In this document: piece by piece, positions 1-40,898 of the stretch
How the letters are laid out: each line of letters opens with the position of its first letter
Numbering within the stretch: the first letter of the stretch is position 1
Source of the DNA: a virus
DNA: 52,647 bases
Virus record (IMG/VR): IMGVR_UViG_3300049846_001015
Span: 1-52,647 of that record
Reading direction: 5' to 3' (one strand)
Position numbers and translations under genes: made by a program
Notes under the pieces: model-generated
The model's input: the letters and a program-made list of their open reading frames with translations, nothing else
Database searches by the model: none
What the model was told of the DNA's origin: nothing

Positions 1-2
1 GA

Positions 3-209
3 CTAACGGAGGGATGGGGGGATTTCCCAGCTAGGGTAGAAAAACGCCCATCTCCTGTCCCCAATGCTGGCTCTTTTCCGTATGAAAGCTTCCGTCTTAT
101 CCGGTTCTGAGAAGATAAGCTGAGTGTGCAGGCCAGGGCGGTCAACGTAATCCTGGAAGAAGGCGACGGCAAGATTTGGAGGCAATTTGTAGGCTGTCGG
201 GAGTCGCAT
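3..209 (-). CDS. Small hypothetical protein, 68 aa
   Basis: A complete small ORF with ATG at 209 and a TAG stop. I do not recognise the product. It has no membrane segment and is fairly basic and aromatic (FFYPSW near the C-terminus). The ribosome binding site is weak. It is the last of a run of very small co-directional genes and opens with MRLP, similar to the MKL/MNLP openings of the array genes at 3.7-3.9 kb. This might mean distant kinship, but the core Gly/Asp motif is absent. Confidence 0.45.
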   Translation of the reverse strand: MRLPTAYKLPPNLAVAFFQDYVDRPGLHTQLIFSEPDKTEAFIRKRASIGDRRWAFFYPSWEIPPSLR

Positions 210-273
210 AAACCCATTTCACTGTGAAAAAATTGAAACGAAAAACCTCAAAAACGTGGGGAAAACGCGATTT

Positions 274-426
274 CTAACCGGCGTCGGTTATTCCTATACC
301 TATCTCGGCTTGCATCCAAATTTCATCCGGCCAAACCGGGCAAGCCAAATGAGTTCTGGATATTGTCGATGAATACGTTGGGAATCTGACTTCCGTTTCC
401 GGCGTGACGTGATTGGGAACCTTCAT
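274..426 (-). CDS. Small hypothetical protein, 50 aa
   Basis: Start ATG at 426 overlaps the TGA stop of the upstream gene in an ATGA junction, the typical sign of translational coupling here. The product opens MKVP and contains FPTYSSTIS. I do not recognise it. The approximately 65 bases between it and the next gene hold nothing I can identify. Confidence 0.4.
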   Translation of the reverse strand: MKVPNHVTPETEVRFPTYSSTISRTHLACPVWPDEIWMQAEIGIGITDAG

Positions 427-608
427 CTCAAATCGTTCCTTGGGTTATGGAACCGGGGAAACCGGGATCTCCAAGGATAGTCTTTTCCCTGAGCCCGGTC
501 ATAAAGGACCAACCCTTGGCACCCCACTTGAACAACCATAGCCTCCACTCCGAAGAACCGCGTTTTGAGACAATTGGGGATTTCGAAGCTTTGAAGTCTT
601 AATTTCAT
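423..608 (-). CDS. Small hypothetical protein, 61 aa
   Basis: ATG at 608 overlaps the TAA of the preceding small gene (TAATG). The product contains a hydrophobic stretch RFFGVEAMVVQVG followed by a charged tail. It may be a remote relative of the tandem array proteins (RFF then a beta-like strand), but it lacks the invariant Asp. Function unknown. Confidence 0.45.
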   Translation of the reverse strand: MKLRLQSFEIPNCLKTRFFGVEAMVVQVGCQGLVLYDRAQGKDYPWRSRFPRFHNPRNDLR

Positions 609-739
609 TAGTAGATTCGGCTCCTACGTTGAAATAAGAAAACCTTGGGGAAGCGGTAATTCGCTGAGAACCGAGGAGAGACCCTGGCGGTCAGAATATC
701 AAACTCGTTTATGGGGAAAGAGCGGTCTTTAAGTCTCAT
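608..739 (-). CDS. Small protein with EFD motif, possible degenerate array member, 43 aa
   Basis: ATG at 739 lies inside the end of the upstream gene and the TAA stop overlaps the next ATG. The product contains INEFDILTARVSP, resembling the EFDxVIxxP part of the core shared by the 15 array proteins at 2.5-5.1 kb, but the conserved Gly is missing. I read it as a possible diverged member lying outside the main array. The ribosome binding site is only GGA. Confidence 0.4.
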   Translation of the reverse strand: MRLKDRSFPINEFDILTARVSPRFSANYRFPKVFLFQRRSRIY

Positions 740-893
740 TTCCGTACAACCAGTCTCTCGGGTGGAATTTTAGGGAGGGGGGTTCCGCCCTAAAGAAGTA
801 ACACAACTGAACGCATCGGATACAGATAAACTCTGGTTTGGAAATCCCCGCCCGCATTTTTGCTATTTTCGGTCGGAACCCCGGCATCCTCAT
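729..893 (-). CDS. Small hypothetical protein, 54 aa
   Basis: ATG at 893 overlaps the TGA of the ribbon-helix-helix-like gene upstream (CAATGAGG) and is preceded by a strong GGAGGAGAACA ribosome binding site. The product holds two Cys in FICIRCVQLCYFF. No family is recognised. Its end overlaps the following ATG by 11 bases. Confidence 0.5.
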   Translation of the reverse strand: MRMPGFRPKIAKMRAGISKPEFICIRCVQLCYFFRAEPPSLKFHPRDWLYGNET

Positions 894-1318
894 TGTTCTC
901 CTCCAGCAAGTTTCTCCTGGAGAAGCGAGATGTAGGTAGCGACGATTTCCTGGAATTCCTGCTTAACCTCGTTGGGACCATCGCAGATGAACTCAGCGAA
1001 ATTCTCGTTTAGCTGATAGGCGAAAACCAGAGAACTTCTCCAGAGAAACCGGACGAATGGGCGTTCTGGAACCGGCTTAGTCTGAACGATTCCCGTAGCC
1101 CCCCGAGACTTGAACATCTCGACAAGGGCTTCGACATAGAGCATCGGAACTTCCACGGAAACTCCCTCTTTGTGTAGGTAGTGGATGGCGGCGGTGGTGA
1201 TGAGATCACAGATTTTCGTCGGAGAAATCATCCCCCGAATTTCCGATTCCTTCCGATACTGCTCCCATAGCCAATCCGGCATCCAAACTGACCGTTTCCT
1301 CGCCCCCATTTGGCGCAT
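890..1318 (-). CDS. Ribbon-helix-helix-like small protein, 142 aa
   Basis: The N-terminal 50 residues (KRSVWMPDWLWEQYRKES, then ISPTKICDLITTAAIHYL) have the strand-helix-helix pattern of CopG/Arc-type DNA-binding proteins: a basic beta strand, an amphipathic helix, then a second helix beginning after a small-residue turn. The rest is unassigned. I chose ATG at 1318 because GAGG lies 9 bases upstream. This makes a 113-base overlap with the preceding gene, which is long for this genome; a start at 1228 (MISPTK) would nearly remove it but lose the strand. Likely a transcriptional regulator, by inference only. Confidence 0.6.
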   Translation of the reverse strand: MRQMGARKRSVWMPDWLWEQYRKESEIRGMISPTKICDLITTAAIHYLHKEGVSVEVPMLYVEALVEMFKSRGATGIVQTKPVPERPFVRFLWRSSLVFAYQLNENFAEFICDGPNEVKQEFQEIVATYISLLQEKLAGGEQ

Positions 1319-2021
1319 CGCTTGTATCCTCAATAACAGCCAATTTGACTCCAAACATACGCTCGATTCGGGAGATCCACTCCTTCAAGGAAATCACCCT
1401 GGAAGCTTCTTTCAGATCGTTCCCGCAAACGAAATCCGCGCAGATGTACTCCAACTGCAATCCCGGAATCTCCGAGCCCGTAGCCTCCTTGGCAATCGTC
1501 ATGGCTTGATCGCAGACTTCGGTTTGCAGGGGGGTCAGGGGAACGGAGAATTTCTTTTGCCGCTCTTTGGTCTCCGGTGTTCCCCGGAGTTCCTTCACCC
1601 ACTGGGTAATCTCTTTCTGAGTCATCCCACGGGCTTTCTCCAGGTAATCGGCGGCGTTCTCCCGGTTGATTACCGGAACCAAGGCCCGCAGATGGAACCA
1701 CGGAACGTCGGCTATATCCTCCGGTTGATAACCGAGGTTGACAACGTAGGTCTCGTAAACCCCGATCAGAGCGGCGCTGGTAGACTTGCCGTATCCGAAT
1801 TCCGAATGAATGTACTCGTCGAAGGACGCAAATCCAGATCCGTCGGCCTTGGAGAGTTCTCGCCAGTATTCCTCTTTTCGAATCTCAAACCACGCTGTAG
1901 CCAGCATGATTTTAGCCTTGTCGCCCATGCCCTTAATGGCTTTGGCGAAATCGAGCACGGCGCGGGGGCGGGCCTCGGCTGAAACTTGAGTCGGGTAGGC
2001 AATCGAAATTTCGTTAATCAT
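1206..2021 (-). CDS. Conserved-looking phage protein, 271 aa, function unknown
   Basis: Start ATG at 2021 has GGAG 9 bases upstream and overlaps the TGA of the small gene before it. The product is helical and charged. Residues 50-130 include FGYGKSTSAALIGVYETY and MTQKEITQWVKELRG, which suggests one or two helix-turn-helix-like segments as in ParB-like or replication-associated phage proteins. I cannot name a family. The acidic, Gly-rich C-terminus (SDDFSDENL-like) is typical of a disordered tail and lies in the zone overlapping the next gene. Confidence 0.7.
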   Translation of the reverse strand: MINEISIAYPTQVSAEARPRAVLDFAKAIKGMGDKAKIMLATAWFEIRKEEYWRELSKADGSGFASFDEYIHSEFGYGKSTSAALIGVYETYVVNLGYQPEDIADVPWFHLRALVPVINRENAADYLEKARGMTQKEITQWVKELRGTPETKERQKKFSVPLTPLQTEVCDQAMTIAKEATGSEIPGLQLEYICADFVCGNDLKEASRVISLKEWISRIERMFGVKLAVIEDTSDAPNGGEETVSLDAGLAMGAVSEGIGNSGDDFSDENL

Positions 2022-2194
2022 CGCTTGATTCTCCAAAAAAGACGGTGTGAATAGTGTGAGGGACAGGCTACAGTTCCTAGACCGCGAAATTGAATAGCGG
2101 TTAGATATTGAACTGCGTAGGCAGGAAGACAGACAGGAAGATCGAGGAACTTGAGCGGAATAGGATCAATCGGCTCGTTTTTATCGAGAACCAC
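2018..2194 (-). CDS. Small protein with GTG start, 58 aa
   Basis: GTG at 2194 is preceded by GGAG at 7 bases, and its TGA overlaps the ATG of the next gene, so it is well supported as a coupled gene although short. The product contains CLPAYAVQYLTAIQF. This is loosely reminiscent of the AGYxxxDxxIxxF core of the nearby array, but the Asp is absent. Function unknown. Confidence 0.5.
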   Translation of the reverse strand: MVLDKNEPIDPIPLKFLDLPVCLPAYAVQYLTAIQFRGLGTVACPSHYSHRLFWRIKR

Positions 2195-2546
2195 GCAATT
2201 TCTCCAGGATCTCTATTACGAAGTCGGGGCGGTCTTGAACGGTGAAAGCGGGAAAGTATAGCCCTCTCCAGCCTAAGAGTACGAGGGCATTGTGCTTTTG
2301 CCAATCTCGGATAGCGCCTTTCCCTGAATGCCCGTAACCGTGTCCTTGAACTTCTATGAAAATCTTGTCGGGGAAACTGAAATCAAGTCGCCAGTCCTTG
2401 TAGCCGGATTTGGCTAGTCGATCTCGCAATCCCGGACCAGAACCGACCATCTCTGCAAAAACACGGTGCTGCGGAGTGAATAATATATTACGCTCGTTAA
2501 GAGCGGAAGCAAGGGATTCTTCGGCGGTTTTTTTCGTTTTTTTCAT
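2181..2546 (-). CDS. PD-(D/E)XK-like endonuclease (Vsr/DUF559-like), 121 aa
   Basis: Residues 50-100 carry DFSFPDKIFIEVQGHGYGHS followed by a helix (RDWQKHNALVLLGW) and a strand ending YFP. An Asp-(x)n-E-x-Q active site, a conserved basic/aromatic helix and a final strand are the layout of Vsr-like and DUF559-like nucleases of the PD-(D/E)XK fold, which hydrolyse DNA phosphodiester bonds. ATG at 2546 overlaps the preceding stop (ATGA). It sits immediately downstream of the tandem small-gene array. Its target is unknown: it may process branched or mismatched phage DNA, or host DNA. Confidence 0.65.
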   Translation of the reverse strand: MKKTKKTAEESLASALNERNILFTPQHRVFAEMVGSGPGLRDRLAKSGYKDWRLDFSFPDKIFIEVQGHGYGHSGKGAIRDWQKHNALVLLGWRGLYFPAFTVQDRPDFVIEILEKLRGSR

Positions 2547-2728
2547 GCTGGAGGGAACAAGCCTTGGCTATACCAAACGTTGTCGAGGATAGGATTACCG
2601 ATGGCGCGGGATATTGCTCCGTAAGGTCCAATGCCGAACCACGCAAATATTACGGCATCAAATTCCGAGAGACCCGAGAACGAATTGAGATCCTGAACTT
2701 CGAAATCCAGATGCTTTACTCTAGACAT
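2543..2728 (-). CDS. Array paralog 15 (last copy), 61 aa
   Basis: Core SFSGLSEFDAVIFAWF at residues 17-32, retaining the invariant Gly and Asp. ATG at 2728 overlaps the end of copy 14 by 8 bases, and GAGG lies 7 bases upstream. The stop overlaps the start of the nuclease-like gene. The C-terminal half is unlike other copies. Confidence 0.7.
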   Translation of the reverse strand: MSRVKHLDFEVQDLNSFSGLSEFDAVIFAWFGIGPYGAISRAIGNPILDNVWYSQGLFPPA

Positions 2729-2879
2729 ACTTAGTCCTCAGTAAAAAGGACAGCAAAGGTGGGAGTCGGGCCGCCGCAGGGTATACCAGAAACGGAACGA
2801 TGAAATCGTCGCATTCGCAATATCCGGCAAAAAATCGGATAGGAGTAGAGATGGAGAATTCGGGAAGATCAAGACGCAT
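2721..2879 (-). CDS. Array paralog 14, 52 aa
   Basis: Core FFAGYCECDDFIVPF at residues 16-30. It starts at ATG 2879, overlapping the stop of copy 13. It is closest to copy 13 (RFAGYSQYDSFIVPF) and copy 7 (FFAGYAQCDSFIIPF), which suggests these form one subfamily. Confidence 0.7.
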   Translation of the reverse strand: MRLDLPEFSISTPIRFFAGYCECDDFIVPFLVYPAAARLPPLLSFLLRTKYV

Positions 2880-3024
2880 AGTATTTTGCCAAAATGCCCA
2901 CGAAAGAAACCCACTGAGCTCCGGGTGAAATCATAAATGGGACAATAAACGAGTCGTATTGGGAATATCCGGCGAAGCGGCGTTTTTCTATCCTAGCGTA
3001 TAAGCTAGGCGATTCAATTCTCAA
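2869..3024 (-). CDS. Array paralog 13 (TTG start), 51 aa
   Basis: Core RFAGYSQYDSFIVPF around residues 17-31. I place the start at TTG 3024 because GGAGGT lies 5 bases upstream and the codon sits just before the TGA of copy 12; no ATG is available before the core. The TGA overlaps the ATG of copy 14. Confidence 0.65.
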   Translation of the reverse strand: MRIESPSLYARIEKRRFAGYSQYDSFIVPFMISPGAQWVSFVGILAKYYAS

Positions 3025-3208
3025 AGGTTACCTCCGAAAACTTGCTTCTCAAAGCGTAGGGGCATCCGTCCGAATGGAAGAACGCCGCGAAAATCACCCC
3101 GTCCATCTGATCGTACCCTTTCAAAGAAGCCCGAAGAGAACCTAGCCAATTTTTAGCTAGTCCGTGACACTTAAACCAATATCTGGTGCTTGGGTTTCCT
3201 ATTACCAT
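3014..3208 (-). CDS. Array paralog 12, 64 aa
   Basis: Core SLKGYDQMDGVIFAAF in the middle of the protein. Lys replaces the usual Ala before the Gly, but Gly and Asp are kept. ATG at 3208 overlaps the end of copy 11. The C-terminal end encodes the ribosome binding site of the next copy. Confidence 0.65.
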   Translation of the reverse strand: MVIGNPSTRYWFKCHGLAKNWLGSLRASLKGYDQMDGVIFAAFFHSDGCPYALRSKFSEVTFEN

Positions 3209-3357
3209 ACGTCAAGATTGATAGCTCTGGGTAATCCGTTGAAGTCAAAGAACGCAACCGCGAGAACCCGGTCGAATGCGTGGTGCCCCGCGAATTTCGT
3301 CACGAATTCATCCGTGCCCCATAGCGGAATTAGGGGGAGCCGAGAGTTTATCACCAT
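3202..3357 (-). CDS. Array paralog 11, 51 aa
   Basis: Core KFAGHHAFDRVLAVAF at about residues 21-36, with His in place of the usual Tyr. ATG at 3357 lies 4 bases past the stop of copy 10. Short C-terminus ending VW. Confidence 0.65.
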   Translation of the reverse strand: MVINSRLPLIPLWGTDEFVTKFAGHHAFDRVLAVAFFDFNGLPRAINLDVW

Positions 3358-3360
3358 TTT

Positions 3361-3552
3361 TCACCGTTGATACATGAGATACCGCCCCACCGGACCAATA
3401 GTTGTGAACATGCAAGAAAAGATCCCGGAAGATAAGGGGGATTGGTTAAACGGAGCTATAACAGTATCGAATTCTCTATAACCTGCGAAATTTTGACCGA
3501 TCAAAGCCCACTCCCCCCAACCGGGGCCGATGTTAGTAGTTTGAAGTATCAT
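3361..3552 (-). CDS. Array paralog 10, 63 aa
   Basis: Core NFAGYREFDTVIAPF at residues 21-35, a close match to the consensus. It overlaps copy 9 by 20 bases. The nearest AGGAG is about 15 bases from the ATG, so translation may depend on coupling to copy 9. Confidence 0.7.
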   Translation of the reverse strand: MILQTTNIGPGWGEWALIGQNFAGYREFDTVIAPFNQSPLSSGIFSCMFTTIGPVGRYLMYQR

Positions 3553-3706
3553 AGATAAATCTGGTACTCCTGGCTTTTAGATCAAGTGGTTCGTAAGGGC
3601 TTGTGAGGACTGGATCAAACTCGTAGTCGCCCGCGAAAACACCATAAAAGCTGCGGGGGAAGAAGCGGTTTCGAATAATTTCCAAAGGTGAAACTGGGAG
3701 TTTCAT
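3533..3706 (-). CDS. Array paralog 9, 57 aa
   Basis: Core VFAGDYEFDPVLTSPY at about residues 23-38. ATG at 3706 is 14 bases after the stop of copy 8. It opens MKLP. The C-terminus RSTRFIYDTSNY resembles the RFIDYDLWD end of copy 2. Confidence 0.65.
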   Translation of the reverse strand: MKLPVSPLEIIRNRFFPRSFYGVFAGDYEFDPVLTSPYEPLDLKARSTRFIYDTSNY

Positions 3707-3720
3707 GTTCAACTCGCAAG

Positions 3721-3915
3721 TTAATCTCGGTCAAACCAAAAGCAGTTATCCGGGACGCCGGGAAACGCGGACAGTAGATTATTGGGGATGTGCATAACAT
3801 GAGGTTGCCGGAGGAAGTTCACGATAATTTCGTCTAGATCCGCGAAACCCGCAAACATTGCGCAGTTAATCACGCACTTTTCGATAACTCGAAATCTTTG
3901 CCTCGGAAGATTCAT
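3721..3915 (-). CDS. Array paralog 8, 64 aa
   Basis: Core MFAGFADLDEIIVNF at residues 20-34. ATG at 3915 overlaps the stop of copy 7 (ATGA). It has a longer, aromatic C-terminus (NCFWFDRD). Function unknown, as for all copies. Confidence 0.7.
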   Translation of the reverse strand: MNLPRQRFRVIEKCVINCAMFAGFADLDEIIVNFLRQPHVMHIPNNLLSAFPGVPDNCFWFDRD

Positions 3916-4073
3916 GCTTCCCCCATAATCGCTTTTTCTATCATAAACGAAGGCATAGCCGCAACTGGACGATGAAATCGAAATGGAATGATAAACGAAT
4001 CACACTGAGCGTACCCGGCAAAAAAGTCGAGAGCGAGGAAATCATCCTCAGCCAACGGACACGGGAGGATCAT
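3912..4073 (-). CDS. Array paralog 7, 53 aa
   Basis: Core FFAGYAQCDSFIIPF at residues 17-31, nearly identical to copies 13 and 14 despite the distance. This implies non-neighbour duplication or gene conversion. ATG 4073 overlaps the TGA of copy 6. Confidence 0.7.
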   Translation of the reverse strand: MILPCPLAEDDFLALDFFAGYAQCDSFIIPFRFHRPVAAMPSFMIEKAIMGEA

Positions 4074-4204
4074 GTTATCTCCTTAAAAATGCAACTACCG
4101 GCGCAGTCCGCCCAAATAACGCGGTCGAAATCGTAATACCCTACGAGAAGAAAAAACAAGTCCAGATTCAATTCCGTCGGTAAATCTTGGGATTCGACTT
4201 TCAC
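4070..4204 (-). CDS. Array paralog 6 (GTG start), 44 aa
   Basis: The shortest copy. Core LLVGYYDFDRVIWAD, keeping Gly and Asp. GTG at 4204 has GGAG about 8 bases upstream. The C-terminus KEIT encodes the AAGGAGATAAC ribosome binding site for copy 7. Confidence 0.6.
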   Translation of the reverse strand: MKVESQDLPTELNLDLFFLLVGYYDFDRVIWADCAGSCIFKEIT

Positions 4205-4209
4205 TCAGG

Positions 4210-4380
4210 CTACTCCGCATAATAATTTGGCTTGAGGCCGAACCACCAAGCGGCCTCGGCCCTTGCTCCTACGAAGGGGATCATAACCCAATCGAACTCA
4301 GCGAATCCGGCGAAGTTCTTGAAAGCGAGTACCGCAGCGTAGGCAGAGCAGGGGGTTTCCATCAACGGGAGAGCAGCCAT
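4210..4380 (-). CDS. Array paralog 5, 56 aa
   Basis: Core NFAGFAEFDWVMIPF at residues 22-36. ATG at 4380 lies inside the end of copy 4. The C-terminus is Ala- and Trp-rich (AEAAWWFGLKPNYY). Confidence 0.7.
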   Translation of the reverse strand: MAALPLMETPCSAYAAVLAFKNFAGFAEFDWVMIPFVGARAEAAWWFGLKPNYYAE

Positions 4381-4538
4381 ATTTTTCCTTCGAATAGGAA
4401 ACTAACACAGGTATCAATGTCGGTGGGAGAGATCCCGTTAGGAATGTACGCGGCAAAAATAACGGAATCGAATTCTTGCCGCCCCTTGAACTTGCCATAA
4501 TACGGCACAATAGCAAACTTGTCTCGTCTAAGAATCAC
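4362..4538 (-). CDS. Array paralog 4 (GTG start), 58 aa
   Basis: Core KFKGRQEFDSVIFAAY, with Lys and Arg replacing the usual Ala and Tyr. GTG at 4538 is preceded by GGAGG at 6 bases and overlaps the stop of copy 3. Confidence 0.65.
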   Translation of the reverse strand: MILRRDKFAIVPYYGKFKGRQEFDSVIFAAYIPNGISPTDIDTCVSFLFEGKIWLLSR

Positions 4539-4734
4539 TCCCGGCCTCCGGAAACTCAGGGGGAGAGAAGATCAAGTCCAAATTTCGCAGAGGGTCCGCG
4601 CCTACAATCATCCTTCCCCTCCCCAGTCCACAGAAAAATGACGCAAAAATCACCGAGTCACAATCAAGATACCCAGCGAACTTGGTGTATCCCGCGTAAG
4701 GGGGGCGGGCGGCGTTATAAGCTGGTAACAGCAT
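4528..4734 (-). CDS. Array paralog 3, 68 aa
   Basis: Core KFAGYLDCDSVIFASF after a preceding YAGYT. The start is ATG 4734 because AGGAGAG is 3 bases upstream; an in-frame start at 4767 has no such site. It is the longest copy, ending in a Pro-rich acidic tail. Confidence 0.7.
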   Translation of the reverse strand: MLLPAYNAARPPYAGYTKFAGYLDCDSVIFASFFCGLGRGRMIVGADPLRNLDLIFSPPEFPEAGSDS

Positions 4735-4757
4735 GATCTCTCCTAATTTCTGCGTTG

Positions 4758-4952
4758 TCAATCCCAAAGATCATAGTCGATGAATCGACTCGGAAGCGCT
4801 ATCGGGTCGCCGTGTCGATAAGGAGAGGCTATTGCGTAGTCGAACTCAAAATTCCCCGCGAACCTAAAGAAGTCCTTAAAAATCTCCCTCATTTGTAGAA
4901 CGCTCCCCGGAACCGTGGATCTCCGTTTCGAAAATTCAGGTTCTAGAAGCAT
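4758..4952 (-). CDS. Array paralog 2, 64 aa
   Basis: Core RFAGNFEFDYAIASPY at about residues 30-45, with Asn replacing Tyr. ATG at 4952 overlaps the end of copy 1 by 10 bases. The N-terminal half is basic. Confidence 0.7.
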   Translation of the reverse strand: MLLEPEFSKRRSTVPGSVLQMREIFKDFFRFAGNFEFDYAIASPYRHGDPIALPSRFIDYDLWD

Positions 4953-5128
4953 AATCTCCCACCGAAAGTAAAGTTTCGGGAGAACCCTGTCCTCGACACT
5001 CGGATTCGAGCCTCGGGGTCGTCATACAAAAACGGAATTATCGCCTCGTCGAACTCCGTGTACCCGACGAAATTCGCGATGGCGTTAATCTTGCCGCCGC
5101 CGTATTCAATGTTGCTAACGACTCTCAT
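4943..5128 (-). CDS. Array paralog 1 (first copy), 61 aa
   Basis: Core NFVGYTEFDEAIIPF at residues 19-33. ATG at 5128 is chosen over an in-frame GTG at 5146 because CGGAG lies 5 bases upstream and the GTG would fall at the terminator T-run. First gene after the intrinsic terminator at 5147-5181. Confidence 0.7.
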   Translation of the reverse strand: MRVVSNIEYGGGKINAIANFVGYTEFDEAIIPFLYDDPEARIRVSRTGFSRNFTFGGRLCF

Positions 5129-9019: not shown

Positions 9020-9093
9020 TAAGCCGGGCGGGATTCGAACCCGCAACCGACGGATTAGAAATCCGTTGCTCGATCCAATTAAGCTACCGGCTC
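9020..9093 (-). tRNA. tRNA-Arg (anticodon UCU)
   Basis: Canonical cloverleaf: acceptor GAGCCGG/CCGGCTT (one G:U), D arm, anticodon stem ACGGA/TCCGT with loop TTTCTAA (anticodon TCT), T arm GCGGG-TTCGAAT-CCCGC. No encoded CCA. It reads AGA codons. Its 5' end overlaps the stop codon of the upstream membrane protein gene by two bases. Confidence 0.92.
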
Positions 9094-33086: not shown

Positions 33087-34736
33087 CTACATCTTGAGAA
33101 GGGCTTCGGGAGTATCCTCACCGATAGTCCAAATTTCGTAATCGAAAAATGGCAGCTTATTCTTCACGATCAATTCGAGATCCGTTCTTCGCTTATGGCT
33201 TCGGGCGAAAACAGCCCTCATCTGTTCGGCTGGGAATCTATCCTGACCCCAGATAAACCGATCCTGCAACCTAGCGACAATCCACTTATAGTCGGAGAAT
33301 CGGTTAAAGATATGAGGCTCGGCGTGAGCAAATGAATCTTGCTCGTCAGTGAAAACCAACATATCCGCAGGAGGCCAGGGATCGAAAATATCTTTCACCT
33401 TAACGTAGGCGTCTTTCTTTTCAGAAGAAGTCGGCTTGTCACTTTGCCCGACGATTGAAACACCGAACTGTACCGCCCAATCAATTGTCTCTCCGTCGTA
33501 ACTGCCCAACTCGAACACAGAGGCTTGCGTAAGAGAAGCAATTCGGGCAACTGACTGCTTCGACCCCCGGAGAGTATGCTGCCTGCGATAACCATATCGG
33601 TGTTTCCCCCAAAAGTCGATTCCCAGATCTTGTTCAAATACCTCTTCCCAAGAGTCGATCAATTGGGATACGGAAAACCGCTCTAGCCGGGAGTCATCAT
33701 ACTTGACCGAGGCAATGGTAGCGGAAGCTTCAACAAATCTTTTGATATCCGGAACCTTCCAAGTCGTCCCCACAGAATATCTAGTGGTAGCTGGGGGAAT
33801 CAAACCCGGATAATCTTCCCCAACAATTTCTGACATAGTTGTGTGGTCGGTAAGTAATTGCGGTAGCCCCGCCGCCATACACTCGGCCACGGTCAGACCC
33901 CAGCCCTCACCGTGAGAGGTATCAATACGCCAATCTGACATATTGATAATCTCGTTCAAGTCCTCAACGGGGAGATGCTTGTTCCAGTCAAATCCCGAGA
34001 ATACTACGTTATCCTCGATCCCATATACTTTCGCCATTTTGCGGAGATTGAATCCGCCGCGAGTTTCTTCCACGTCGGCTTTCGTGTGCGCGAGAAACTG
34101 AATCTCCGGGATGGTCTCTTTCATCCTCGCAACGTAGTCGAACGCGAGATCCCATCCCTTGTGCCAGAAATTTCTGTTGATATTCAGAACCAACGGGGCG
34201 TCGGGAAAAATAGGAACTCGCCAAAGCTTCGACCACTTCTTCCGGAGGGAACTTTTCGAAACATCCAACTTCCTAAACGCGGGATTAACCGCATGATGGA
34301 TAACTCGGTCGCTTTCTGCCCGAGTCCACAACTTCTGAGAAAAGTAGGACAGGTGAATCACCGCGCCCGGAGCAACTCCCCACCAGAGATTCAGCATATC
34401 CTCTGGGACTGTTGATCCTTCGTAGGGAAACCAGTAGTAAATCGGAATATTCGCCGGGGCTACTTTCAGATCCATCCAGCCGTTGATTCTTTGGGCGGAA
34501 TCGAAGAAAATAGCTACGTTAGGCCGGATCTCGGAAAGTACACGGTCAATCCCCGCCGCGTCGTAGGCTTCCGTGCGAATTTCTTCCCAAGGGAAAGCGT
34601 TTTCAGCTACGCCATACGGCTCGCAGACGACAACAACTTCGTGCCCCCGGTCGTGAAATCCTTGAGCTAGGAGTTGAGTTTGCTGCCCGAACCCTGTACC
34701 CCGGTTGGGGGAATTGCTGATAATCGCGATCTTCAC
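33087..34736 (-). CDS. GT4-type glycosyltransferase fused to a methyltransferase-like domain, 549 aa
   Basis: Residues 1-380 are GT-B: NSPNRGTGFGQQTQLLAQGF at the start, and the C-terminal nucleotide-sugar motif TSHGEGWGLTVAECMAAGLP near 273-292. From about 410 there is a second domain beginning SVFELGSYDGETIDWAVQFG, similar to motif I of class I methyltransferases, with VFTDEQDSF later. It could glycosylate and then modify the sugar. GTG 34736 has AGGAG 6 bases upstream. Confidence 0.78.
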   Translation of the reverse strand: MKIAIISNSPNRGTGFGQQTQLLAQGFHDRGHEVVVVCEPYGVAENAFPWEEIRTEAYDAAGIDRVLSEIRPNVAIFFDSAQRINGWMDLKVAPANIPIYYWFPYEGSTVPEDMLNLWWGVAPGAVIHLSYFSQKLWTRAESDRVIHHAVNPAFRKLDVSKSSLRKKWSKLWRVPIFPDAPLVLNINRNFWHKGWDLAFDYVARMKETIPEIQFLAHTKADVEETRGGFNLRKMAKVYGIEDNVVFSGFDWNKHLPVEDLNEIINMSDWRIDTSHGEGWGLTVAECMAAGLPQLLTDHTTMSEIVGEDYPGLIPPATTRYSVGTTWKVPDIKRFVEASATIASVKYDDSRLERFSVSQLIDSWEEVFEQDLGIDFWGKHRYGYRRQHTLRGSKQSVARIASLTQASVFELGSYDGETIDWAVQFGVSIVGQSDKPTSSEKKDAYVKVKDIFDPWPPADMLVFTDEQDSFAHAEPHIFNRFSDYKWIVARLQDRFIWGQDRFPAEQMRAVFARSHKRRTDLELIVKNKLPFFDYEIWTIGEDTPEALLKM

Positions 34737-34981: not shown

Positions 34982-35019
34982 AGCTTTATGGGCTTTCCGA
35001 AAAACTTGTCGTATCATAA

Positions 35020-35086
35020 AGGCAAGTGCGGGAATCGAACCCGCCTTACGCATCTTGAAACTGCGATGTCTCCCAGAGCACCTGCC
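35020..35086 (-). tRNA. Short tRNA with anticodon UCA, tRNA-Cys-like acceptor
   Basis: Acceptor GGCAGGT/ACTTGCC (one G:U); anticodon arm CGCAG-TTTCAAG-ATGCG (four pairs and a G-A closing mismatch); variable loop TAAG; T arm GCGGG-TTCGATT-CCCGC. The loop gives anticodon UCA, which reads UGA. Only 14 bases separate acceptor and anticodon stems, so the D arm is strongly reduced; total 67 bases. G2:C71, C3:G70 and U73 are the acceptor identity elements of tRNA-Cys. It lacks the long variable arm of tRNA-Sec. Whether it is charged is unknown. Confidence 0.7.
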
Positions 35087-35092
35087 CGTAGC

Positions 35093-35416
35093 TTAGGACT
35101 GGATTCCAAGCCAAGCGTGAACGTCCTCGAAATCGGCCCGATAGAAACGGTTGATTTTGTTGAGAAGCGTTTTGCAGTCAGGGAGAACTTTCGCGGTCTT
35201 TTCGACTTCCTTGTAGGGAATACCGCGAATGAAAGCCAGAGCCAATTGAGCCATCCGAGATTCGTTCCTGAGACGGTAAATCCGGTGCCACTCAAGTTGG
35301 TTGCGATAATCCGGCGCGGCTTTCTTGGATTCTTTCCGGATTATCTTTGACTCCGCGCTGAGAGATTTGACATTGACGCGGAGACGGTGGATAGCGAAGG
35401 TTTTTTCGAGAAACAT
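35093..35416 (-). CDS. Conserved small phage protein, 107 aa
   Basis: MFLEKTFAIHRLRVNVKSLS then RNQLEWHRIYRLRNESRMAQ and LALAFIRGIPYKEVE match a frequent phage protein of helical build, function unknown. AAGGAG lies 9 bases before ATG 35416. The 80-base leader has a GC hairpin and the sequence AATACCATTAAGGAG, similar to the leader at about 7700. Confidence 0.72.
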   Translation of the reverse strand: MFLEKTFAIHRLRVNVKSLSAESKIIRKESKKAAPDYRNQLEWHRIYRLRNESRMAQLALAFIRGIPYKEVEKTAKVLPDCKTLLNKINRFYRADFEDVHAWLGIQS

Positions 35417-35496: not shown

Positions 35497-35718
35497 TTAC
35501 CATCGCCCATCGGGACACTCCTCGGATTTCAGTTGAATTTTCTCGGCGAGAAAACACCCGCAAAGGCCGCACACGCTTCCCGCGCGGAATTCACAAGTCG
35601 AGCAAATATTGTGGGCCTCTACTTGAGCCCCGTAATCCCTTGTGGATTTACCCCAGGCTCGGGCTTGCGCTCGGACGCATTTGAAAGCGCCGACAAACAA
35701 TCCAATGATGAAATTCAT
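35497..35718 (-). CDS. DUF6171-like Cys-rich small protein, 73 aa
   Basis: The C-terminal half CSTCEFRAGSVCGLCGCFLA, then KSEECPDGRW, matches the DUF6171-type pattern (C-x2-C ... C-x2-C-x-C ... C-P-x-G-x-W), a small metal-binding module. The N-terminus FIIGLFVGAFKCV may be a short membrane or amphipathic helix. ATG overlaps the previous stop (ATGA). Confidence 0.68.
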   Translation of the reverse strand: MNFIIGLFVGAFKCVRAQARAWGKSTRDYGAQVEAHNICSTCEFRAGSVCGLCGCFLAEKIQLKSEECPDGRW

Positions 35719-35969
35719 TTCTTCGGCTCGCATTTAGTACAAACTTGGCAACAGACCTCCGGACCCTTCGTTCGAGCCAGAGTGCATTTTCCGTGGACTT
35801 CGCAGTTGTAGATCGGAATCCCCGGACACTTCGAACAGGAACTTGTTCGTTTAGTGCCGCATTGCTTGCCGCGATGGGTGCAACTTCGGATCTGTTGTAG
35901 GGTAAACCCGTTGGCGTAAGTCCGAGCCGCCCCGGTTTTCATCAGATTATTGTTCTTGGCGTTTTTCAT
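35715..35969 (-). CDS. Cys-rich protein, intact paralog of the UGA-interrupted gene, 84 aa
   Basis: ANGFTLQQIRSCTHRGKQCG, SSCSKCPG, CEVHGKCTL and EVCCQVCTKC give about 11 Cys in 60 residues. This looks like a metal-binding or disulfide protein of a family I recall from planctomycetal phages (HRG ... C-x-C ... HG-x-C ... C-x2-C). It overlaps the preceding paralog. The Cys of SSC aligns without gaps with the UGA of that gene. Confidence 0.65.
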   Translation of the reverse strand: MKNAKNNNLMKTGAARTYANGFTLQQIRSCTHRGKQCGTKRTSSCSKCPGIPIYNCEVHGKCTLARTKGPEVCCQVCTKCEPKK

Positions 35970-36186
35970 AGTTAGTACAAGTGGCACAGGGCTGCTGTTT
36001 CTGGGTTGAAGTATACTTTTTTATCGCACACAGACCGTGTACGGCGCATTCAAATACGACTCCTTTACCCCGTCAGCCGCCCCCGACTTTATCTCCTGTG
36101 GGTTTACCGCGATGAACACACAACTCTAACTCGGCCTCTGTGAATCCGTTGGCGAGTTTTACGTTTTTGCCCTTCTTGCAACTCAT
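35947..36186 (-). pseudogene. Cys-rich gene with in-frame UGA at a conserved Cys position (pseudogene or recoded)
   Basis: ATG 36186 opens a frame (SCKKGKNVKLANGFTEAELE, then CVHRGKPTGDKVGGG). It meets TGA at 36075-36073 and continues in the same frame as RGKGVVFECAVHGLC ... QQPCATCTNYE to a TAA at 35947. Both halves match the neighbouring gene 35715-35969. From the shared HRGK, the tenth residue is Cys in that paralog and UGA here. If UGA is read as Cys, the product is 79 residues and complete. Otherwise it is a 37-residue fragment. Confidence 0.7.
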
Positions 36187-38856: not shown

Positions 38857-39001
38857 TCTTCAAATCCTTGCATGAATTGCAAGAACACGGCGAACCTTTT
38901 GAGGGCTCGCCGGTTCTCTCGCAGACTTTGAACAGATAGCACCCCAGCGAAATCAATGCTCGCCAGTGGGCGCTAGCTGACTTTCTCTTTCTCCCTCGCA
39001 C
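38816..39001 (-). CDS. Possible small Cys-rich protein, 61 aa
   Basis: The 117 bases between two glycosyltransferase genes are covered by an open frame (GTG 39001). Its product has CERTGEPSKGSPCSCNSCKD, a plausible metal site. It overlaps both neighbours (29 and 41 bases) and no clear ribosome binding site is present, so it may be chance. Confidence 0.3.
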   Translation of the reverse strand: MRGRKRKSASAHWRALISLGCYLFKVCERTGEPSKGSPCSCNSCKDLKNESSLSLSDVQPG

Positions 39002-40898
39002 GGCGGATAGCCTCTTTCACCAATCCTGGAATCGGGTCTGTCGGATTCAGCTTCCACGCCAAGCCGGTCTTAACCGAGAGTGCGGCGGCTTTGATCTTTT
39101 CGGACCAACTCCAACGGTCCTGTCCGGCTTTAATCTGCTTAACGATTCGCTCGAATTGTTGCTCGCAGCCGTCACAGCCGAGTTTATCCATTTCCTCAGC
39201 TTTGGCCTTGCAATCGCATCCGGGCTTTTCCGCTACCCCAATTTCCTTGAGCATGTTGGTCAACTCGGTGCCCGGTCCTTTCCCTGGAGGGAAAATATTG
39301 ACCGGAGATGCGGGGCGGTCCACTTCCTGCAAACCAATAACAGTAATCCCCCACTTATGCTCGGCGTGGTAGGCGACGAACGCTTTGGGATTTTGATTGA
39401 GATACCACTTGATTCCTTCGAAAAGACCGGGAGAATTTCCACCCTCTCCGACGTTGCCGTTTGAACCAGTTCCGCGAATAACGATAAACCGTCGGACTTG
39501 GCCTCCATGCAAACTGAGTTCTGCTTTAAGCCGCTCTCCGCTATGAACGGTATCCAAATACAGAAGATCCGTCTCGTCGATAATTGGGACCGAAAGGCTA
39601 TCTGTATCCGCGTAGATTTCGACCGACCCTTGGGGGAGGGCTTCAATCACTTTCCGGAGAACCAGATCCGGCTCTTTCGTATAGCTCACCAATTTTAGCG
39701 GCTTGCCCGCTGCGAAGGCAATAGTAGATTCTCGCTTCTTGGTGAATTCGGTGACTCGATTACATTTCGAAGCGAACTCGCGGAGAGTGTCGAAATGTTC
39801 GTCGAGATCCCGCTTACCTGCTTTGCCCCACTCAAACAAAGCTGCGATATCTGTAAGTTGAGGGGGCGGCTGGCTTCCCTGCAAATTACGCAGTTGAAGC
39901 GCCGATGCCGGTCGGAAATGCTTGATCGGATTATCCAACAAGTATTCCCACTGGTCTTTGGGGAGCTTGAACCCGCTGTGGATTTGGCGGAGTTTATCGG
40001 GAGACCGGCGAATCAACTCCAAACTAACCGAATGGACTTCAACCAAATGCTTTGGCAAGTCCTCATCCGAGATGTCTTGATTTACGAAGTGGTCGTAAAT
40101 ATCGTCTAGCGGTAATCCTAGTTCTTGGTGCCCGAGGACGTAATTCCGAACCTTATCGTACAGGAGTGCCGGATACTTATTCCCCCCGACTCGGCCAAAA
40201 CGATGAATCCATCGCAAAAAGGGAAGGCAGAGAGCCCGCCCCCCGGCCTGCCTGAACTTCTCATGGATGTAGAGTTCCTCCCCGCCAAATCCTCGGAAAT
40301 AAGGATTGAACCCTACCCATGATTTCTTGAGACACGCAAAAACTCCCAGACCTTGGCCGGGAATCTCGAAAGGAGGATTTTGCGCGTCGGCGGCTCGGTT
40401 GTCGCAGCCCCACGTTCCCCACATGGCCGAACGCCATACGGGATCGAATTGAGTTTCGAAACTGTTTGTGGGAAGCACTTTCCGTAGATCGGCGACAAGC
40501 GCTACGTCGTCATAGACCAAAGGACCGCTGACGATATCCTTCGAATCCGGGTAAACTTCGAAGTAAGCGCGGAGAAGGTCAATCACTCCGACGGGAAACA
40601 TGACGTGGCAATCCATTACCAAAACCAAGTCCCCGGTAGCTTCCCTAAAGATCCGCTCCCGAGGTTGGGTGGTCCCGGTACTTTCCGGCATCGGAATATA
40701 GCGGACGGTGACAGAATTTTGCGCCCGCATCCATTTCCCAAGGAAACTCCGGAGATGTTTGCTGTGTTCACTTCCGGGAGAGTTATCGACTACGATAATT
40801 TCGCAGTCTTTCAGATTTTGGTGGAGCGCCAAGCTCTCAAGGGTGAAGTATACCCCGTCAAAATCTTCGTAATGAGCCATTCCAATTGTAAGTTTCAT
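38973..40898 (-). CDS. Multidomain glycosyltransferase with planctomycetal-type C-terminal module, 641 aa
   Basis: Residues 1-240 are GT-A: TIGMAHYEDFDGVYFTLESL, IIVVDNSPGSEHS, LVLVMDCHVMFP (D-x-H motif), GFGGEELYIHEKF. Residues 380-530 look like a Rossmann methyltransferase-like region (DLLYLDTVHSGERLKAEL). The end carries CDCKAKAEEMDKLGCDGC and GLVKEAIRRA, a tail I recall from planctomycetal glycosyltransferases. It lies directly after the Thr-rich tail gene. AAGGAATTGAA precedes ATG 40898. Confidence 0.82.
   Translation of the reverse strand: MKLTIGMAHYEDFDGVYFTLESLALHQNLKDCEIIVVDNSPGSEHSKHLRSFLGKWMRAQNSVTVRYIPMPESTGTTQPRERIFREATGDLVLVMDCHVMFPVGVIDLLRAYFEVYPDSKDIVSGPLVYDDVALVADLRKVLPTNSFETQFDPVWRSAMWGTWGCDNRAADAQNPPFEIPGQGLGVFACLKKSWVGFNPYFRGFGGEELYIHEKFRQAGGRALCLPFLRWIHRFGRVGGNKYPALLYDKVRNYVLGHQELGLPLDDIYDHFVNQDISDEDLPKHLVEVHSVSLELIRRSPDKLRQIHSGFKLPKDQWEYLLDNPIKHFRPASALQLRNLQGSQPPPQLTDIAALFEWGKAGKRDLDEHFDTLREFASKCNRVTEFTKKRESTIAFAAGKPLKLVSYTKEPDLVLRKVIEALPQGSVEIYADTDSLSVPIIDETDLLYLDTVHSGERLKAELSLHGGQVRRFIVIRGTGSNGNVGEGGNSPGLFEGIKWYLNQNPKAFVAYHAEHKWGITVIGLQEVDRPASPVNIFPPGKGPGTELTNMLKEIGVAEKPGCDCKAKAEEMDKLGCDGCEQQFERIVKQIKAGQDRWSWSEKIKAAALSVKTGLAWKLNPTDPIPGLVKEAIRRAREKEKVS

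Follow-up and report, generated by a model that had tools for sequence, protein, structure and literature searches.

What is a tRNA-like RNA with a stop anticodon doing in a phage that uses its stop codons in the ordinary way? The question is raised by positions 35020 to 35086 of IMG/VR virus record IMGVR_UViG_3300049846_001015, which was analysed over its whole length of 52,647 bases (the window). A gene for a 107-aa protein lies upstream of this RNA, its stop codon 6 nt away, and the tRNA and its protein partner are found to stay together in otherwise dissimilar phages. We give about an even chance to the explanation that the two constitute a phage module, consisting of a putative dedicated nonsense-decoding tRNA (for UGA here and for UAG elsewhere) and a small basic helical-hairpin cofactor. 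The features concerned are:

35020..35086, minus strand: tRNA-like RNA, 67 nt (ARAGORN, cloverleaf fold, covariance model of its relatives)
35058-35056, minus strand: anticodon UCA of the tRNA-like RNA
35079-35066, minus strand: reduced D region of the tRNA-like RNA, 14 nt
35044-35028, minus strand: T arm of the tRNA-like RNA
35020, minus strand: discriminator U (U73) of the tRNA-like RNA
35093..35416, minus strand: partner gene, 107 aa (homologues in IMG/VR loci and in named phages)

A tblastn search with the partner protein gave matches in Stenotrophomonas phages and in phage NCTB, and an alignment of five homologues used as query retrieved 35 IMG/VR loci, with E values down to 2e-24; homologues are also present in Delepquintavirus, OLIVR1, DSS3_MAL1, NCTB and one contig of a metagenome-assembled genome (MAG). 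In phage Summit a tRNA with the annotation “suppressor tRNA” begins 6 nt after the partner homologue and represents the same module, and DLP_3 and DLP_5 have a CTA tRNA in the same place, the spacing across these three phages being 6–8 nt downstream. The same distance from the partner stop codon to the tRNA start (6–8 nt) is seen in the closest relatives of the window (L026-L031), which have an 8-nt anticodon loop, CTTTCAAT. In DSS3_MAL1 and OLIVR1 the stop-anticodon element is found about 100 nt upstream of the partner, while tRNA and partner are about 0.9 kb apart in the MAG contig, which is from Polynucleobacter. A repeat viral scan with an alignment (A4) of 29 of the 35 IMG/VR loci plus the window, omitting the near-duplicates L031, L042, L046 and L060 as well as L054 (no motif) and L058 (long), gave no new records, and a scan for relatives with the exact tRNA pattern returned nothing.

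The linkage was scanned in the fetched parts of 35 records. In partner-bearing records a stop-anticodon tRNA-like RNA shares the strand of the partner at a distance of up to about 1.4 kb, or of 2.6 kb in NCTB. The sole miss is G020, a contig that ends 117 nt past the partner gene; it nearly duplicates G021, where the element sits 592 nt downstream. ARAGORN, which does not favour stop anticodons, found a tRNA with a stop anticodon or an odd loop within 0.8 kb of the partner in 18 of the 35 records, as against a single one far away. A hand-written scanner without an anticodon filter detected a TTYYAA loop in 13 of the 17 remaining records, most of these elements having been missed or misnamed by ARAGORN (as Glu in G014 and Arg in G019). 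A strict scan, which unlike these two presupposes a stop anticodon, succeeded in 28 of 35 records (G009 and G025 among them), where an element lies on the partner's strand no more than 1.5 kb away. It also gave the NCTB element and one further far hit. Of the six others, G008, G021, G022, G032 and OLIVR1 are covered by ARAGORN or the unfiltered scan, the sixth being G020. A comparison of the window with its five nearest relatives shows no well-conserved gene apart from the partner (40–57% identity), which indicates that the module moves between phages.

The anticodons of the family are far from evenly distributed. Among 38 elements, UCA occurs in 24, CUA in 13, UUA in one and CCA in none, where the triplet preceding A37 was taken as the anticodon of 8-nt loops and the labels for loop length and anticodon were assigned by hand; the Fisher p for this bias is 2.6e-9 if the rows are independent, which they are not. 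A partner tree of 38 rows, in which 17 of 35 inner branches are weakly supported, implies at least 10 switches of anticodon type with stop-reading retained throughout, and even a sister pair (G018 with TCA and G023 with CTA, support 100/94) differs in its anticodon; the tree omits G006, G017, G020 and G034 as near-duplicates of included rows and uses no repeat GenBank entries. Discriminators vary as well (U in 16 of the 38 elements, A in 12, G in 8 and C in 2). Because of this variation and the anticodon switches, the conserved property, judging from the sequences, is that the RNA reads UGA or UAG, and is neither an amino-acid identity nor a single founder sequence. That UCA and CUA are preferred speaks for an actual use of the anticodon.

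The main rival explanation is a translationally inert tRNA mimic to which the partner would bind and which would act as a decoy, sensor or scaffold, for instance in countering defences that cut tRNAs; the stop anticodon, the enlarged loop and a lost D arm would exclude it from normal translation. The variable discriminator and acceptor, the poor D arm and the 8-nt loop are all consistent with such a mimic, and the spread across otherwise dissimilar phages would suit a counter-defence gene. It provides no cause, however, for the preference of UCA and CUA over UUA and CCA, nor for the repeated swaps between them, and although the D arm is often shortened across the family, several copies resemble working tRNAs in having a full D arm and a 7-nt loop. 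An inert mimic is for us unlikely, if to be taken seriously.

The loop itself leads to another possibility, a +1 frameshift suppressor in which an 8-nt loop reads UGAA or UAGN at selected stops. Apart from the window copy, 29 of 37 elements have by hand assignment such a loop (CTTTCAAT, ATTTCAAC, ATTCTAAC, CTTCTAAT and others), and ARAGORN itself reports four-base anticodons. The same partner nevertheless accompanies 7-nt loops in the other 8 of the 37, the extra base is located 5' of the U33-like T, so that a fourth pairing is unconstrained, and no conserved overlapping target is known. In the window copy the loop is not of the 8-nt type: it can be drawn with 7 nt (TTTCAAG, a stop anticodon followed by A37) above a G.A closing mismatch, or equally with 9 nt (GTTTCAAGA) over a 4-bp stem. 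Frameshift suppression appears improbable to us.

Whatever its role, the RNA fold is under selection. In an alignment of 23 elements that excludes the window (A5), 95.3% of the pair cells are standard, two-sided changes are seen in all 7 acceptor pairs and in 4 of 5 pairs of the T stem, and covariation scores 0.733, as against 0.190 for shuffled alignments and at most 0.170 for slid controls. The A5 model matches in 40 of 41 records; it is not specific, as it also scores ordinary tRNAs, and a tRNA-Arg of the window attains 44.2 bits, more than the window element.

For the window copy, ARAGORN reports a TCA tRNA on the minus strand at 35019-35087. Its 67-nt form (35086-35020) reads GGCAGGT / 14-nt D region / CGCAG-TTTCAAG-ATGCG / TAAG / GCGGG-TTCGATT-CCCGC / ACTTGCC / T, with an acceptor of 7 out of 7 base pairs (including one G-U), a T stem of 5 out of 5 below a TTCRANN-type loop, a variable loop of 4 nt, a G.A mismatch at pair 31:39 and no encoded CCA. 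The tRNA(UCA) is therefore located where the initial annotation had placed it, and the details listed there (G2:C71, C3:G70, U73 and a D region of 14 nt) are all present. The check by covariance models that it had called for came out divided. The general Rfam tRNA model RF00005 gave no match at its gathering threshold for 35020-35086, while scoring the tRNA-Arg of the window (9020-9093) at 67.9 bits; the A5 model (R1), to which the window did not contribute, accepts the element with 32.8 bits (E 2.5e-7). This score, together with the fact that the strict scan, which detects the window element, gave no hits in 820 kb of Markov-simulated sequence, means that the element is not a chance fold. It also bears a weak likeness to RAGATH-21 (RF03097; 20.9 bits, E 0.11 on 201 bases), far under the gathering score of 70.3, and RAGATH-21 is itself perhaps a tRNA-like RNA without a D arm. 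An origin as an attachment site was rejected, as no integrase was found among the proteins searched, which was not exhaustive, and as the 5' acceptor strand also pairs.

The G31.A39 mismatch, the sub-threshold result with the Rfam model and the lack of an encoded CCA might also be taken to indicate that the window holds a decayed, non-functional copy of an otherwise functional module. Its acceptor and T stem are fully paired, however, and the adjoining partner gene is intact, while 12 other short elements (65–68 nt) from different phages likewise have paired acceptor and T stems; decay is thus very improbable.

A further explanation would apply to this phage only and is the one from which the analysis started, an opal tRNA-Cys that serves the UGA of a nearby Cys-rich gene. 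The corresponding features are:

36073..36075, minus strand: in-frame TGA, in a small Cys-rich frame (35947-36186)
35718..35969, minus strand: intact Cys-rich paralogue of the UGA-bearing frame (34% identity, E 9e-8)

A UGA-bearing gene near the tRNA does exist, and its TGA aligns with a Cys column, namely the second Cys of a CxxC in most members of the family, the first Cys being Gly here. The family has the pattern C.HxG..C..C.G..F.C..HG.C in IMG/VR phage contigs; of 15 matches to the motif, 12 look real by eye, and CxxC is found at the UGA/Gly site in 9 of these 12. As to the tRNA, the window copy has all three acceptor features of canonical tRNA-Cys (U73, G2:C71 and C3:G70), with the anticodon UCA instead of GCA, and a 25-nt part of its 3' half is 96% identical to the tRNA-Cys of two Roseobacter phages. 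These features are not shared by the family: all three occur together in only 5 of 38 elements, and the discriminators of the five nearest relatives are G, C, G, G and G. Searching the fetched parts of the 35 other records that carry the partner brought up no Cys-rich motif, and the loss of the other CxxC Cys as well is what a decaying paralogue might show. An opal tRNA-Cys for this gene is accordingly the least probable of the explanations considered, and the TGA at 36073-36075 is a possible target of the tRNA. Of the initial annotation as a whole, the reading of UGA is retained, as relatives in divergent phages keep a stop anticodon; conserved Cys identity and the matched pair of tRNA and UGA-bearing gene are not supported, the conserved companion being the 107-aa gene.

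Two further observations concern the Cys-rich genes. A 7-bp hairpin with a GGUCU loop occurs about 36 nt after the in-frame TGA (36006-36075, minus strand), a spacing like that of a bacterial selenocysteine insertion sequence, but the folding energy is not out of the ordinary (-15.8, compared with -13.3 +/- 3.0 for mononucleotide shuffles), and a selenocysteine-type signal past the UGA was rejected. In L008 and L017 the Cys-rich pattern appears, by eye, in one frame with a glycosyltransferase-like sequence.

The partner protein is basic, with 22 K+R and 12 D+E, and its net charge is positive in 38 of 38 rows (median +10), which is in keeping with a possible role in RNA binding. In the confident AlphaFold2 model (mean pLDDT 96.7), a long helical hairpin leads into short helices. 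Comparison with the Pfam, PHROG and PDB sequence families yielded weak hits only and none that matched, including no match to synthetases or elongation factors, and look-ups among solved and viral structures gave generic hairpins and no clue to function. The best viral structure matches are uncharacterised phage proteins that probably belong to the same family. The tRNA-binding arm of seryl-tRNA synthetase is second in the structure list, which may reflect just a common arrangement. Since one pattern scan of genomes from 84,980 species gave a single partner contig, that of the Polynucleobacter MAG, the partner looks phage-specific within the limits of a pattern search.

Several points weigh against the decoding module that we favour. 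TGA is the commonest stop codon in the window (29 of 62 ORFs of at least 80 aa) and is not avoided in UCA-type phages (354 of 840 ORF stops), for which reason efficient decoding is unlikely; that a cognate stop is not avoided would equally be expected of an inert mimic. Open extensions are not clearly in excess in genes that end with the cognate stop, and the 81 internal stops listed, most of which lie in antisense or neighbouring frames, include no convincing case of a conserved gene interrupted by a cognate stop. The authors who described Summit likewise sought targets for its suppressor tRNA, found none and called its purpose unknown, and the relevant passages of their paper do not mention the neighbouring partner gene (PMC9022506). 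The hairpin predicted for the partner is, moreover, generic, its match to the seryl-tRNA synthetase arm (Z 9.6) falling below the level that the tool regards as informative.

Ordinary stop use excludes genome-wide recoding, and a recoded phage of the code 4 type, where UGA would be absent or rare as a terminator, was discarded given the frequency of TGA in the window; the partial decoding that was first proposed does fit this frequency. TAG accounts for 23 of 188 stops in CUA-type records and for 176 of 840 in UCA-type records, a difference that is suggestive, though uncorrected for base composition. In NCTB (L110, 11001-31000), which has a UCA element, 29 ORFs end with TAA in 25 cases, TAG in 4 and TGA in none, and it alone among the records might have UGA free for decoding.

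The poor D arm, the odd loop and the lack of stop avoidance argue that the anticodon, if used, is used weakly, conditionally or with help from the partner. In the module as we envisage it, the tRNA would be charged by whichever host synthetase suits its acceptor, plausibly CysRS in the case of the window, and would enter the A site at UGA in weak or conditional competition with release factor 2. The partner might bind the tRNA, stabilising a form poor in D arm and with an enlarged loop, or else the terminating ribosome, and once bound could make decoding possible or limit its timing. The benefit would probably lie in readthrough at a few stops or in a general effect on termination during infection, and not in genome-wide recoding.

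Recoded phages (crAss-like and others) encode nonsense-suppressor tRNAs, and the RNAs described here resemble these in being phage-encoded and having a stop anticodon. They differ in that the partner-bearing phages use their stops normally and that the tRNA travels with a dedicated protein, often with an 8-nt loop and a shrunken D arm. A stop-codon tRNA with a protein of its own is also reminiscent of tRNA-Sec with SelB and tRNA-Pyl with PylRS. The acceptor of the window copy, however, has 7 bp (an eighth pair would be G.U) and its variable loop only 4 nt, unlike tRNA-Sec, and the partner, with about 100 aa and without a synthetase or elongation factor match, is unlike SelB and PylRS. The tRNA-Cys(UCA) termed selC*, as far as the relevant passages of its description go (PMC7609411), shares the UCA anticodon and the U73 Cys features with the window copy, which lacks the Sec-like long acceptor and variable arm and belongs to a family where Cys features are not conserved. 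The Summit tRNA differs from the window copy within the family itself, having CUA, a 7-nt loop and a full D arm.

As for the rest of the window, its polymerase has only distant relatives among sequenced phages, a near-DNA search against phages gave no match, and close-relative scans with the polymerase, a 431-aa protein and the Cys-rich proteins returned nothing. The left end (1-5100) has short minus-strand ORFs only, several of which share a similar FAG-type motif. Two other genes were noted:

38973-40898, minus strand: glycosyltransferase gene (Pfam GT2)
33087-34736, minus strand: glycosyltransferase gene (PHROG glycosyltransferase)

Several members of the family are invisible or misnamed in annotation (as tRNA-Glu, tRNA-Val or tRNA-Arg), and the module has therefore probably been overlooked so far. 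The tRNA of DLP_3 (L023 1798-1871), a tRNA-Glu in GenBank, has CUA according to ARAGORN, and the GenBank tRNA-Val of OLIVR1 (L062 2315-2391) carries an 8-nt loop with CUA, GCCCTAAC; both labels are likely to be misannotations. The literature searched, with subscription papers mostly outside it, covers recoded phages and selC* tRNA-Cys and contains in the parts available no report of the pairing of tRNA and partner. The tRNA half is a variant of known suppressor tRNAs, the new part being the obligate-looking protein partner.

Suppressor tRNAs occur in phages that do not recode, at least one case, that of Summit, having been published as unexplained, and the link to one protein family provides a concrete unit that can be tested in Summit, DLP_3, DLP_5, OLIVR1 and DSS3_MAL1. 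That this unit is a mobile, phage-specific stop-decoding pair, a minimal stop-anticodon tRNA with enlarged loop and a cofactor of about 100 aa spread through many unrelated phages of standard code, is a proposal we make tentatively, its chances being somewhat short of even. If true, it would be a third case of protein-assisted stop reading beside selenocysteine and pyrrolysine, one that alters termination during infection. Should the stops be decoded, phages would have a new way to influence how translation terminates, and compact suppressor tRNAs might be obtained from them; should they not be, the family would represent a tRNA mimic of a new kind, one that has a protein partner.
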